DNA from: Methylacidiphilum sp. Yel
GTDB lineage: Bacteria; Verrucomicrobiota; Verrucomicrobiia; Methylacidiphilales; Methylacidiphilaceae
DNA: 61,403 bases
Direction: 5' to 3'
Assembly: GCF_004421185.1 (NCBI RefSeq)
Contig: NZ_LXQB01000012.1
Coordinates: forward strand, 1 to 61,403
The position numbers and the translations under genes are program-made. Below are positions 1-5,779 of this stretch, one piece after another. The first letter of the stretch is position 1; each line of letters starts with the position of its first letter. The notes beneath the pieces are model-generated. The model was not told the origin of the DNA and did no database searches. It saw nothing but the letters and a program-made list of their open reading frames with translations.

Positions 1-666
1 CCGTCGCTGCCGACGCTATCCCCTGCGTCCTGCTGAAAACCAAGGCGCGACCGGGGGGGGATTTGGGGGTATCGGCCATGGCAACACTCTCCACAAGGAG
101 AAAAGGTACTCGGTCCTAAGCCGCACAGGGCCTTGCTCAAGCGATTGCGGAGACTCTCTAGAAATCTCTTGCGCAAGAAAAAGGGGTCGGCCAATCGGAC
201 AAAAGCCAAGGCTTGGATTTGCAAGGCTGCATGCCCGTATTGCCAATATCCGGCAGGAGGGCTTGCACAAGCTCACCTCATGGCTCAGGCGATGATTTCA
301 CCGCGTGCTTGTCGAAGAGCTGAAAGTGGGCGGCATGGAGAAGAACCGGTAATCTTGCCTGCTTTCTATCCGACATGGGTTTCTTAAAGTTTCGGCGACA
401 ACTGGAGCTGTTCGGCATGGGGGAGGGTCCAGGAAACACTGCCGCTGGCCATTCGCCAGTGGGTGTGCCCGGAGTGTGGAAGCATCCACGACCGGGAGGT
501 GAATGCGGCCAGGAATATCCTGGCGCATGGTTTGGCCGTCCTAAACGGCCTTATGACGAGTTGCGCCAAATGTGAAGCCGGTGGAGAAAAAAGCTCTTGC
601 CGCCGTCGCATGACGATGGGAAAACTGTCCTCTGTGAAGCAGGAAGTTAGCTTTGTTCCTCTGTGA
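1..666 (+). pseudogene. tnpB: tnpB (IS607-type accessory RNA-guided nuclease family), degenerate C-terminal part
   Basis: TnpB is the transposon-associated nuclease related to Cas12. Pieces of its C-terminal half are spread over different frames. The clearest is at 463-666, where the frame encodes CPECGSIHDREVNAARNI, the second zinc-knuckle half and following conserved block of TnpB. The upstream CxxC half and the catalytic segments are scrambled by frameshifts and deletions relative to the copy at 36837-37765. No intact reading frame remains, so no active nuclease is expected. Confidence 0.7.
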
Positions 667-1268: not shown

Positions 1269-2198
1269 CTAATGGTGAGGCTGCAACTGCTTCGTTTTTT
1301 CTAAATTAATCAAGGAAGGGTTTGCAGTAGCGCGAAAATCCGCATTAGGAGATGCTGGATAGACAGTAATTTCAACCCTTCTATTTTTTTCCTTTCCCTC
1401 TAACATACTATTATCAGCTATTGGATTGGTTTCTCCTCCAGCAGCAAGAGAAAACATACCTTCAGGCAGTTGTCCAATCTGGATTAATGCCCTGATAACA
1501 GCAGCCGAACGTATGGCTGAAATTTCCCAATTTGTAGGATATATATCTTGTACTTCATGAGCAGGCGGATCATTATCCGTAAAAGAACAAACTTCTATTT
1601 TCGAATCCTGAGTGTTAACCAAAAAAGGCTTTGTTACAGAGAGGAATTTTGATAAAAGAATTTTTCCTTGTGTGCTTAACTTTATGCCTCCATAGGCAAA
1701 TAAGGCACTCTTAGCGAATCGGGCAACCACTCCATTTTTTTGCAGCATCACTGTTAATTCCCCTTTTTGTATTTCTTCAGGAAATGCTGCTTTTAACCTA
1801 TTTTCAAGTTCTTTGGTTAAAGAAGAATTTTCTTTAGTCGAACCACTTGTTGCTTCCTCCATTTTTTTTGATTCGACTGCTTTGAGTGATTGAGTGGTTT
1901 TCTCAAGAAGTTCTTCTTGACTTTTCAATAGGCTGCCTGTCTGGGACAATTCGGCTTGAAGTTGATCAACAACCGCCCGTTGCTTTTGATTTTCTTGTTT
2001 GAGAAGTTCATCCTCTTCTTTTAGTACTCGAATGGTCTTTTCCAGTGAAATGTATTGGCTATAAAAGTATACCGCTGTAGCACCTAAAAAAACACTTAAT
2101 GAAACCCAAAAAAAAACAGCTCCCAACCCTCCTGCCGGCAAAACCGTTTGTTTTTTCTTTTGGACTTTGACAGGTACTACGGCCGGTTTTTGATCCAT
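1269..2198 (-). CDS. OmpA/MotB-like C-terminal domain protein with N-terminal membrane anchor and coiled coil
   Basis: The 309-residue protein has a short basic cytoplasmic tail, one transmembrane helix (about residues 22-46), a long heptad-like Glu/Gln/Leu coiled coil (about 50-115), and an OmpA-like domain (about 190-290) with the typical SxxRAxxVxxxL-type helix and a final NRRVEI strand. Domains of this family bind peptidoglycan; the layout suggests an inner-membrane anchor reaching the cell wall. It is the last gene of the minus-strand set that begins with the ECF sigma factor and lies 54 bases after the HtrA-like gene. Its role in that cluster is unknown; sensing of, or anchoring to, the wall is an inference. 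Confidence 0.75.
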   Translation of the reverse strand: MDQKPAVVPVKVQKKKQTVLPAGGLGAVFFWVSLSVFLGATAVYFYSQYISLEKTIRVLKEEDELLKQENQKQRAVVDQLQAELSQTGSLLKSQEELLEKTTQSLKAVESKKMEEATSGSTKENSSLTKELENRLKAAFPEEIQKGELTVMLQKNGVVARFAKSALFAYGGIKLSTQGKILLSKFLSVTKPFLVNTQDSKIEVCSFTDNDPPAHEVQDIYPTNWEISAIRSAAVIRALIQIGQLPEGMFSLAAGGETNPIADNSMLEGKEKNRRVEITVYPASPNADFRATANPSLINLEKTKQLQPHH

Positions 2199-2252
2199 TT
2201 CTTTAAAATAACTTTTTTATCAAATAATAACAAGAAAAGAAAAAACTCTTCT

Positions 2253-3371
2253 TTAATGGGTATTATTTGTTTTTTCCACAGGTGCAGTCATTGGAGAAGA
2301 GCTTACGGGTAGGCTTTGTGACCAATTCTTTTTAAGTTCCTCAGGATTGTTTGGTAAAATCGTAGAGCCTGAAGGGGCGTCAATCGGCCTTTCTCCAACT
2401 AAAAACTCGAACTGTATTGGCTTACCATCTCTTAATACCTTTACGGGTATCTTTTGTCCTACAGAAACAAAGAACGATGCATCCATTACATCTGCCAAGC
2501 TGGTAATCTTTTTCCCATTGATCGAGACAACAATATCCCCTTCCCTTAACCCGCTACCAGATACAGGAGTATTAGGAAATAGACGGGCAACTACCACTTG
2601 CCCTGCAGCCTCCTCTCTTCCTATTTTGGTAACAGCCACTCCAACCCATCCATAACGCACCTTCCCATAGCGAGTGGTATCATCAACGACTTTTCTAATT
2701 GCTTTGCTTGGCAACGCATAACTCCATTCTTCTTCTTTTACACTCATCGTTATCATTCCAACGACTAACCCCCTCGAATTAATTATGGGCCCACCAATCT
2801 GGCCTGGATTTACCCTTGTATTAATCCTATAATGGGTCGTGGGAAAAAAATGATTTAAATATTCGCAATCTTTTCCTACAACCAATCCAAAGGAAGGGCA
2901 AGCGGGAAGCTTATACGGATAGCCTATGCCTACAACAGGTGTCCCGGTAAGGACCTCTTGACCGTAAGCAAGCTTTAGAAAAGGAAAGGGTTTTGAACCC
3001 TCTTCAACTTGAAGAACAGCCACTCCACTTCGCTCGTCAATGCCTAGAACTTTGGCTAAATGCCATTGAGCGTTGTAATCAACATAAAAGAGCGAATCGG
3101 TTAACTGGCAATCGGGTGCTGTAACCAAGACTCCTTCGGAATTGATAAAAAAACCTGAGCAGAAACTTTCCCCCCCATTTCTATGCTCTATTCTAACACG
3201 GACGACAGCGTTTTTGTTCTGCTCAAAAATCTTGTTAACTTCTCTTCCTATGGTATCAAAGAGACTTTCAGCACCTATCAGTGGCAATCTTCCCAAAACG
3301 AGGAAGAAAAAAAAAAGGCAAGCCGATGAGGCTTCCACAATAGAATCTTTAAAAAGCAACCATCGCTTCAT
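2253..3371 (-). CDS. HtrA/DegP-like PDZ protein lacking the catalytic triad (pseudoprotease)
   Basis: The 372-residue protein has a signal peptide or anchor (about 12-34), a trypsin-like double-barrel domain (about 50-230) and one PDZ domain (about 240-328). Aligned by eye to DegP, the His of TNNHVV is Asp87 here (TAPDCQ), the Asp of SDIAL is Gly115 (SGVAV), and the nucleophile Ser of GNSGG is Ile192 (GQIGG). The surrounding fold motifs are well kept, so this is a maintained non-catalytic protein and not a broken gene. It overlaps the upstream putative anti-sigma gene by 23 bases, implying translational coupling. A sensor or chaperone role in the envelope is inferred. Confidence 0.8.
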   Translation of the reverse strand: MKRWLLFKDSIVEASSACLFFFFLVLGRLPLIGAESLFDTIGREVNKIFEQNKNAVVRVRIEHRNGGESFCSGFFINSEGVLVTAPDCQLTDSLFYVDYNAQWHLAKVLGIDERSGVAVLQVEEGSKPFPFLKLAYGQEVLTGTPVVGIGYPYKLPACPSFGLVVGKDCEYLNHFFPTTHYRINTRVNPGQIGGPIINSRGLVVGMITMSVKEEEWSYALPSKAIRKVVDDTTRYGKVRYGWVGVAVTKIGREEAAGQVVVARLFPNTPVSGSGLREGDIVVSINGKKITSLADVMDASFFVSVGQKIPVKVLRDGKPIQFEFLVGERPIDAPSGSTILPNNPEELKKNWSQSLPVSSSPMTAPVEKTNNTH

Positions 3372-3900
3372 AATGAGTTAACGCATCACGAATGACATAA
3401 TGTGGATCTTTAGAATTGTGGAAATTGGGAGCAAGTTTGGTAGATTCCACTTCAAGATCCTCTTTGGATGGTAAGGAAAGAAGAGGAGGAGTAGAAGGGA
3501 CAAGGGTTTGAGAATGTTGGCTTTTTTCAACTCTTTCTATTTTTGGAGACTCATAGTTTGTAACCAAAGAATTAGGTATCTTCTTACTGTTGTTTTTAAG
3601 TAGATTGAAACTGTTGAAACTGACAATGCCTAGAAAAAATACAAAAAGGAAACTTCCTACGACCGCTCTTTGGAATACTCTGGTATGATCACAAAGAAGA
3701 AAGACTCTTTGGAGTTTTTCTAAAAACATTTCTGAAAAACTCTTTTCTTTGATCATTTCAACACGAAGCCTTCTGTGAAGATTTTGATGCATTTGTTCAA
3801 AATATTCAGCAGTGGCAAGCTTTTCTGTCTGTTTCTCTAAGTGTGTTTTTATCCATTTTTTCATTTCTACATCCGCAGTTTGAAGACATTTTCTCTCCAT
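3349..3900 (-). CDS. putative membrane-bound anti-sigma factor
   Basis: The 183-residue protein has a cytoplasmic N-terminal part (about 1-78), one transmembrane helix (about 80-100, AVVGSFLFVFFLGIVSF) and a proline/serine-rich extracytoplasmic tail. I find no recognisable zinc anti-sigma motif. The call rests on topology and position: it follows the ECF sigma gene by 34 bases and overlaps the next gene. The start at 3900 is preferred over an ATG at 3913-3915, because a GGGAGG Shine-Dalgarno (3908-3913) sits 7 bases before the ATG at 3900 and overlaps the earlier ATG. It could instead be an unrelated membrane protein. Confidence 0.5.
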   Translation of the reverse strand: MERKCLQTADVEMKKWIKTHLEKQTEKLATAEYFEQMHQNLHRRLRVEMIKEKSFSEMFLEKLQRVFLLCDHTRVFQRAVVGSFLFVFFLGIVSFNSFNLLKNNSKKIPNSLVTNYESPKIERVEKSQHSQTLVPSTPPLLSLPSKEDLEVESTKLAPNFHNSKDPHYVIRDALTHYEAMVAF

Positions 3901-3934
3901 ATCAAAGCCTCCCATTCTACATCTTCCACATTTT

Positions 3935-4549
3935 TTAACTTATGAAGCTGTTGTCATTTTTCAATAGCTTTTGCAGTTGCTTATGTGCATAGAACAATCT
4001 AGAGCGAATTGTTCCTTCCGAACATCCCATAATTTTAGCTATTTCCGAATGGCTGAGCTCTTCTAAATCAAAAAGAACAACAACGGCTCGATGTTTTTCG
4101 GAAAGCTTAGATAGGGCATCATTCAAAACCTTATTCAGTTCTTTAATTTCCATTTGTCGTACCGCTTGCTCTGCCGAACGGTAATCGACAAATTCCTTTT
4201 CCATTTTCCCCTCCTCATCGTCTGGAAAATAAGGATAGGGTTGTGGGCTGGATTTCGATTTTCTTTTAAAACTTATAGCGGTATTAATGGCAATACGATA
4301 GATCCATGTATAAAAGGAAGCTCCAATTCGAAATCCCCCAATGTTTTTGTAGGCTTTGATAAAAGTTTCCATTAAAACGTCGTTTGTATCTTCATGGTGC
4401 AGCAGCACACCATAAATCACCCTATATAATCTTTTTTGATAGCGTTCGACTAAAATATCGAAAGCATCCAATTCTCCAGATTTCATTCTGAGAATGAGCT
4501 CCTGATCGGTTGGAGACTGATCGAGTACTTCTGGAATAGCTTTTTTCAT
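3935..4549 (-). CDS. ECF-type RNA polymerase sigma factor (RpoE-like)
   Basis: The 204-residue protein has region 2 (about 20-90, AFDILVERYQKRLYRVIYG and the FIKAYKNIGGFR segment with YTWIYRIAIN) and region 4 (about 135-195, LSEKHRAVVVLFDLEELSHS then a helix-turn-helix GCSEGTIRSRLFYA). These are the two domains of an extracytoplasmic-function sigma factor, which redirects RNA polymerase to a small regulon. It heads a minus-strand cluster with a putative anti-sigma, a dead HtrA-like protein and an OmpA-like protein, so envelope signalling is the likely trigger. Autoregulation is likely for the family, but I could not identify its promoter. Confidence 0.92.
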   Translation of the reverse strand: MKKAIPEVLDQSPTDQELILRMKSGELDAFDILVERYQKRLYRVIYGVLLHHEDTNDVLMETFIKAYKNIGGFRIGASFYTWIYRIAINTAISFKRKSKSSPQPYPYFPDDEEGKMEKEFVDYRSAEQAVRQMEIKELNKVLNDALSKLSEKHRAVVVLFDLEELSHSEIAKIMGCSEGTIRSRLFYAHKQLQKLLKNDNSFIS

Positions 4550-4735: not shown

Positions 4736-5779
4736 ATGCAACTAGATAAAGTTTCTTCAAAACAGAGGGTTTCTAATAAACACCTCTCTCCTCCTATCTA
4801 TTCTTGGGCAATTAAGCTTGTCGTACTTGTCGTATTCTTTCAAATGTTCTCCCTCCTTTCCATATTCTGGTTAAGACATTACGTTTTTAATCAAGTTTCA
4901 AAAAAAGATCGATTGACAGCTGCAAGCAATTCTTTTAAGTTGCCTTCTTTTCTTTCCCCTAAGCCTCCAGCCTTACCAGTAATTCACTCCAAAGAATTGA
5001 AAAAGGATGCTTCGTTTTTAGCAGAAGAAAATAAAGAAGAAAAACTCGATGCCTTTATCAAGGATGCCGAACGGTTTGAAAGAGAAGGAGAATTGAGCTT
5101 AGCTCATGATGCTCTAAACAATGCTGAAGAAGTAGATCCTCTCAATTGCGATGTACTTGTCAGACAAGCTCAGCTAGCTGAACGTCAGAAAGATGGTCAA
5201 AGAGCCTATACCTATTGGAGTAAAATCGCTGAACTCGATCACAAATCTAGCTCTTCTAGTCCGCTTTATAAAACAGCCCGTCAAAAAGTAGCTGCCTTTA
5301 GAAGTCTCTCTAAAAAAGACAGTGGCTCCCCACCTCTTATCCATTCGGCTCTGAAAGGAATTCAAGGAATGGGCAAAACGTTATGCCTTGAAAAAATACG
5401 TGTGGAGAAAAGTAATCTTTCTAATACCCCGTGGGGACAAGAAGTCACTCTGCGGGTGCCCATTTTTCTTTCCGATCCTACCATTCGCATTGATCCCAAA
5501 CAGATCCGTTACCAAATTTATATTTATGATGAGATAGACAAAGGCATTATTTTACAATCAAATGCCAAAATTACCAGCTCCTTTGAGAACCCTCTTCCTA
5601 CTTGGACTATTCACCAAACAGAAATCCTTCGGATTAATTACAAATTAGAACGTCCCGTTCAAAATCAAAAATTTTATGGGTACATCATTCGGATTTTTTA
5701 TTGTGGACAGCTTCAGGATCAAATTGCTGATCCCCCTGAACTGCTAACCCGCCTTCCCGGTTTAACTCCTAAGATGTAA
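4736..5779 (+). CDS. membrane-anchored TPR-like protein of unknown function
   Basis: I do not recognise a named family. The 347-residue protein has one N-terminal transmembrane helix (about 27-50), a linker, then a helical part (about 95-185) that reads like two tetratricopeptide repeats (an ALNNAEEVDPLNCDVLVRQAQ-like pattern). The last half is rich in beta-strand-forming residues. The family resemblance suggests a periplasm-facing scaffold. It converges on lpxB and the two coding regions overlap by 18 bases at their 3' ends. It diverges from the ECF sigma gene across 186 bases, so it could belong to that regulon, but no shared promoter motif was found. Confidence 0.6.
   Translation: MQLDKVSSKQRVSNKHLSPPIYSWAIKLVVLVVFFQMFSLLSIFWLRHYVFNQVSKKDRLTAASNSFKLPSFLSPKPPALPVIHSKELKKDASFLAEENKEEKLDAFIKDAERFEREGELSLAHDALNNAEEVDPLNCDVLVRQAQLAERQKDGQRAYTYWSKIAELDHKSSSSSPLYKTARQKVAAFRSLSKKDSGSPPLIHSALKGIQGMGKTLCLEKIRVEKSNLSNTPWGQEVTLRVPIFLSDPTIRIDPKQIRYQIYIYDEIDKGIILQSNAKITSSFENPLPTWTIHQTEILRINYKLERPVQNQKFYGYIIRIFYCGQLQDQIADPPELLTRLPGLTPKM

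Follow-up and report, generated by a model that had tools for sequence, protein, structure and literature searches.

A conserved ECF sigma factor cassette of Verrucomicrobiota with an HtrA pseudoprotease and a presumed anti-sigma factor: a candidate envelope-stress module

Contig NZ_LXQB01000012.1 of Methylacidiphilum sp. Yel (61,403 nucleotides, hereafter the window, from a host genome of 2.25 Mb) carries four genes in tandem on its minus strand, encoding in order an extracytoplasmic function (ECF) sigma factor, a small membrane protein, an HtrA-like protein with a PDZ domain and an OmpA-like protein. We propose that the first three make up a sigma/anti-sigma envelope-stress module in which the HtrA-like protein, a pseudoprotease, may serve as a PDZ receptor that does not cut, a reading to which sequence comparisons and structure models lead us to give a probability of roughly 0.42. 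The new observation behind this proposal is an aromatic tail, resembling a PDZ ligand, at the C terminus of the presumed anti-sigma factor itself.

Results

Loss of the catalytic triad in the HtrA-like protein

The HtrA-like gene (2253..3371, minus strand) encodes a 372 aa protein with an N-terminal signal sequence and the domain order of the HtrA/DegP fold family, Trypsin_2 (3.8e-17) followed by a single PDZ_2 domain (1.8e-12, Pfam; 2379..2666, minus strand). Alignment to DegS and DegQ of E. coli MG1655 placed Asp87 (codon 3111..3113), Gly116 (3024..3026) and Ile192 (2796..2798, all minus strand) opposite the catalytic residues H96, D126 and S201 of DegS. Among 48 aligned family members drawn from several orders, none kept any of the three at these places: His and Ser were found in 0 of 48, the Asp place was always substituted (31 Gly, 17 Asn), and the Ser place was occupied by Gly, Ile, Val, Leu, Ala, Gln or Asn. 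An original prediction, made from the letters of the window alone, had named Asp87, Gly115 and Ile192 as the replaced residues; the alignment confirms the loss, moves the Asp place by one residue to Gly116, and extends the loss far beyond the genus. Decay within one genome is ruled out as its cause, as the loss is common to all 48 proteins and reading frames are intact in nearly all matches.

No Ser or His is conserved in at least 75% of the family at any position of the protein, and the family has no conserved Cys. Catalytic residues therefore do not appear to have moved elsewhere, and the protein is, by its sequence, a pseudoprotease. It scored 136 bits against TIGR02037 (cut-off 416) and 90.7 and 81.8 bits against two DegS models (cut-offs 423 and 408), so that with the triad gone and both scores below the cut-offs it does not qualify as a DegS-type site-1 protease.

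The rest of the protein is preserved, as had been predicted for its PDZ and fold motifs. An AlphaFold model (mean predicted local distance difference test, pLDDT, 87.5) has a normal HtrA plus PDZ fold that matches DegP, DegQ and DegS at Z 27-31 (DegP Z 30.9) and can be superposed on DegS with its bound YQF peptide at Z 29.6. In the PDZ domain, the loop W242-V-G-V (2637-2648, minus strand) aligns with Y258-I-G-I of DegS and has the form of the DegS-type [YW]-x-G-x carboxylate-binding loop; Trp or Tyr is found at its first position in 46 of 48 family members, and Gly at the third in 46 of 48. Because the triad is lost far beyond the genus while the PDZ domain and the fold are kept, the role of this protein cannot be a DegS cut. 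In a tree, a branch with 100/100 support separates the 48 dead proteins from 10 active HtrA proteins, and a single ancient loss of the triad is the simplest reading, although it falls short of proof because so few active proteins were sampled. The triad motifs are intact in two DegP/DegQ-like paralogues of the host genome.

Conservation of a three-gene cassette

The ECF gene (3935..4549, minus strand) encodes an RpoE-type sigma factor of 204 aa in which sigma regions 2 and 4 are both present (Sigma70_r2 1.2e-14, Sigma70_r4_2 1e-14, Pfam; TIGR02937 109.6 bits, cut-off 42.9). From this gene to the OmpA-like gene, successive genes are separated by a gap of 19 bases, an overlap of 23 bases and a gap of 54 bases. 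Gene calls and Pfam domains agree with the order given in the original prediction.

We collected 111 loci encoding the dead HtrA protein, a partly redundant set in which collections overlap and some genomes are counted twice. A small gene adjoins the HtrA gene in 106 of them and an ECF gene is present in 102, which excludes a chance arrangement. The order ECF gene, small gene, dead HtrA gene recurs while the flanking genes vary, and four of the five loci without a small gene sit at contig ends. All 60 genomes searched in the window's order matched the HtrA protein, a few best matches being weak and possibly active paralogues. When named genomes were scanned, the cassette was also present in Methylacidimicrobium, Verrucomicrobia 'subdivision 6', Chthoniobacter/Spartobacteria and Opitutia.

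In a wider search of 289 genomes of the phylum, high-scoring members (about 180 bits or more) came from 18 genomes that share the window's class but not its order, and from a single genome of a different class. Every high scorer whose neighbourhood was examined was dead and preceded by an ECF gene and a small gene, and the lower-scoring matches checked, for example at five loci, were active proteins. The distribution within the phylum is patchy, as two large families of the same class (f11 and most of f12) gave lower matches only.

The OmpA/MotB-like gene (1269..2198, minus strand) encodes a wall-binding protein of 309 aa with a transmembrane helix and a coiled coil (Pfam OmpA 1.9e-10). It adjoins the cassette at eleven loci, all in the window's family, and is not adjacent in other families of the order. 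Because of this restriction it is ruled out as a core member: the conserved unit consists of three genes, and the OmpA-like gene is a lineage-specific addition. The wall-contact role that the original prediction had suggested as an example for its product is accordingly not supported.

The presumed anti-sigma factor and its aromatic tail

The small gene (3349..3915, minus strand) encodes a protein of 188 aa, or of 183 aa if translation starts at the second ATG at 3900. Its homologues, found between the ECF and dead HtrA genes across the order and more widely, are mostly only 10-20% identical to it over the whole length. One transmembrane segment was predicted in all 80 distinct homologues, with a mean of 1.9 Lys and Arg residues before the segment and 0.9 after it, placing the N terminus inside by charge. 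The AlphaFold model comprises three helices (3-28, 31-50 and 55-69), a transmembrane helix (72-103) and a disordered remainder, which would correspond to a helical N-terminal domain in the cytoplasm and a periplasmic tail. The protein thereby has the layout of a transmembrane anti-sigma factor, with its gene beside the ECF gene, one transmembrane helix and a predicted cytoplasmic N terminus, and we infer an anti-sigma identity from its position directly after the ECF gene, the single transmembrane helix and the helical cytoplasmic domain. No similarity to RseA was detected: comparison with a single RseA sequence gave an hhalign probability of 0.3%, although anti-sigma domains diverge so strongly that a missing match says little about homology either way.

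The most constant feature of this divergent family is its last residue. The window protein ends in YEAMVAF-COOH (3352..3372, minus strand), a candidate PDZ ligand whose codons overlap the start of the HtrA gene. Phe was the only invariant column in a first alignment of 31 small proteins, and among the 80 distinct homologues the last residue is Phe in 73, Tyr in 6 and Leu in 1; a terminal Phe or Tyr is thus found in 79 of 80, compared to 10 of 256 neighbouring conserved genes. Position -2 is hydrophobic in about 70 of 80 (28 Leu, 27 Val, 5 Met, 5 Ile, 3 Phe). By its sequence, this hydrophobic-x-Phe tail looks like a class II PDZ ligand and like the end of an outer-membrane protein (OMP), and in the same genome BamA ends ..VGYSF and three TonB-dependent receptors end ..ARITF, ..ISWNF and ..VTVYF. 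PDZ domains of DegS and AlgW bind YxF and WVF ends (PMC8545111). Elsewhere in this genome, the product of the gene that follows a different ECF gene ends SQPPR. The tail motif is not a common pattern of the host genome, in which Y[DE]xxxAF-stop is carried by a single gene; a second match has an in-frame TGG and no stop.

We then considered whether the tail is conserved merely through overlap with the HtrA start codon, which lies inside the last codons of the small gene (3349-3371; tATGa). Most loci of the order share this TATGA overlap, which suggests translational coupling of the small protein and the dead HtrA. The overlap partly accounts for the Y[DE] pair, whose Tyr is encoded by TAT in 57 of 58 cases. 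It does not account for the last residue: of 20 loci in which the HtrA frame begins downstream of the small gene's stop codon, 19 still have a terminal Phe or Tyr, and the terminal Phe is encoded by both TTT (39) and TTC (34), which together indicate that the terminal aromatic residue is independent of the overlap.

Neighbouring sequence

A divergent gene (4736-5779, plus strand), whose product matches TPR weakly (E 0.035), lies beside the ECF gene and stays with the cassette both in the genus of the window and in the Methylacidimicrobium-type genus of the same family. No convincing promoter motif shared by the regions upstream of the ECF genes was found. Positions 1-700 of the window contain broken frames, with a zinc-ribbon piece, CPECGSIHDREVNAARNILA, at 463-666 (plus strand); judging by the motif, these frames look like remnants of an IS200/IS605-type transposase.

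Discussion

What is known of envelope-stress signalling to the cytoplasm comes mostly from Proteobacteria, in which the cut in the anti-sigma factor is made by DegS or AlgW, and recognition of x-Phe ends by a system with an active protease is already known from sigma-E/RseA/DegS and AlgU/MucA/AlgW. Over several orders of Verrucomicrobiota, the present cassette has kept the DegS-like fold, the PDZ domain and the link to an ECF sigma factor, and has lost the protease. If our proposal holds, a signal of OMP stress would be read without a cut at the DegS step, a pure binding switch would replace the protease switch, and an ancient HtrA pseudoprotease would be assigned a function. We found no description of this cassette among the open-access papers searched.

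At rest, the single-pass anti-sigma factor would hold the ECF sigma factor at the membrane, while its disordered periplasmic tail, ending hydrophobic-x-Phe-COOH, would occupy the dead HtrA's PDZ domain and so be shielded. When OMP assembly fails, exposed x-Phe-COOH ends would compete for the PDZ domain and free the tail. The freed anti-sigma factor might then be destroyed by an intact DegP/DegQ-like protease or an S41 tail protease, and subsequently by an M50 protease, with release of sigma. We consider contact between the PDZ domain and the tail, taken alone, somewhat probable. Shielding that is relieved by OMP competition is a tentative addition, and the complete switch, in which an OMP C-terminus mimic on the anti-sigma factor is held by the dead HtrA and displaced by real OMP ends, is slightly more tentative again; we favour it because the PDZ loop is kept, the adjoining gene encodes a tail resembling a PDZ ligand, and the OMPs of the host end alike. 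The original prediction held that any signalling must be non-proteolytic. This stands for the HtrA protein, which would make no DegS-type cut, and not for the pathway as a whole, since the host genome encodes one M50 (RseP-type) protease, one S41 protease and two intact DegP/DegQ-like proteases that it may use. It had also coupled PDZ binding of OMP tails to wall contact by the OmpA-like protein; the PDZ part survives indirectly, through the OMP-like tail of the anti-sigma factor itself, and the wall contact does not.

Several observations weigh against this proposal. Neither Pfam families, sequences of the Protein Data Bank (PDB) nor fold comparisons link the small protein to any known anti-sigma domain. 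The homologues are of common ancestry, and the 79 aromatic ends among 80 are therefore not independent events; conservation of the Y[DE] pair owes something to the start-codon overlap and translational coupling described above; and at one Opitutia locus (L120, 4256-4891) the small protein ends ..PSGSL, in Leu, through either a frameshift or a real change. The Gly of the PDZ loop has become Pro in two sequences. One locus (L062), the fifth of those lacking a small gene, is an orphan dead HtrA gene with neither an ECF nor an anti-sigma gene upstream, and is the only clear exception to the arrangement. The tail could also serve another PDZ protein.

This last possibility can be stated as an alternative in which another PDZ protease, S41 or DegP/Q, recognises the aromatic tail as a tag and makes the site-1 cut, while the co-transcribed dead HtrA works elsewhere, perhaps as a periplasmic chaperone or a target of the sigma factor. 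OMP-like ends are typical tags of PDZ proteases, and the S41 protease and both intact DegP/Q-like proteins are available in the genome; however, the dead HtrA and the tail have stayed together over several orders while flanking genes change, and the dead protein has conserved its own ligand loop, and we regard the tag explanation as unlikely. We judge it equally unlikely that the dead HtrA is an adaptor, counting together a form in which it hands the bound anti-sigma tail over to an active envelope protease and a form in which its PDZ domain first takes up OMP ends, the anti-sigma factor being recruited afterwards through another surface. The tail, the PDZ loop and the tree argue for an adaptor just as they do for a shield, HtrA proteins assemble into trimers and cages, and the genome encodes active DegP/Q paralogues; contact with those paralogues is unsupported, and nothing found separates the two models. 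They differ in the direction of the signal, in that loss of an adaptor HtrA would lower sigma activity, opposite to shielding.

It is more doubtful still that the small protein is a membrane partner of the dead HtrA and not an anti-sigma factor, with the sigma factor controlled otherwise. The missing profile and fold matches and the negative RseA comparison would fit such a partner, but its gene immediately follows the ECF gene at almost every locus and its product has the standard transmembrane anti-sigma layout. An HtrA protein active through an unrecognised catalytic mechanism is highly improbable: we found no support for it, the family offers no conserved Ser, His or Cys, and the triad places vary freely, Ser giving way to Gly, Ile, Val or Leu.

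Comparison with known systems

The proposed module, with the dead HtrA as a non-cutting receptor, most readily invites comparison with the sigma-E/RseA/RseB/DegS/RseP system of E. coli, with which it shares an RpoE-type ECF sigma factor, an adjoining gene for a single-pass membrane protein, an HtrA protein with a PDZ domain of the kind that binds OMP C termini, and an M50 protease in the genome. It departs from that system in that its HtrA protein has none of the three triad residues and its htrA-like gene belongs to the cassette, whereas degS of E. coli is located elsewhere, and in that the presumed anti-sigma factor, which has no detectable similarity to RseA, bears an aromatic tail resembling a PDZ ligand where RseA ends GTQSQ. 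No RseB gene was recognised in the cassette. In the AlgU/MucA/MucB/AlgW/MucE system of Pseudomonas, an HtrA PDZ domain likewise reads an x-Phe end, the WVF of MucE (PMC8545111), as the dead HtrA is predicted to do here; unlike it, AlgW is an active protease, and its ligand lies on OMPs or MucE rather than on the anti-sigma factor. The order of sigma, anti-sigma and HtrA genes is also that of sigE - rseA - htrA - tatB in Mycobacterium tuberculosis (PMC10027907). At that locus sigE and rseA are transcribed separately, HtrA is reported to be an essential serine protease with a wall amidase as a substrate that it degrades, and no explanation has been given for the linkage (PMC10027907).

Repurposing of an HtrA-family protein without classical protease function has a parallel in MamO of magnetotactic bacteria (PMC4794232), although MamO binds metal in magnetosome formation and is not known in a sigma factor cassette. 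For the proposed protection itself, the closest likenesses are the FoxA signalling domain with FoxR (PMC11637429) and RseB with RseA (PMC8103513), in which a periplasmic protein shields an anti-sigma factor against proteolysis, as we suggest the dead HtrA may do. The protector proteins are unrelated, and the protection given by FoxA and RseB does not involve the contact between a PDZ domain and a C-terminal tail on which the verrucomicrobial module would depend.

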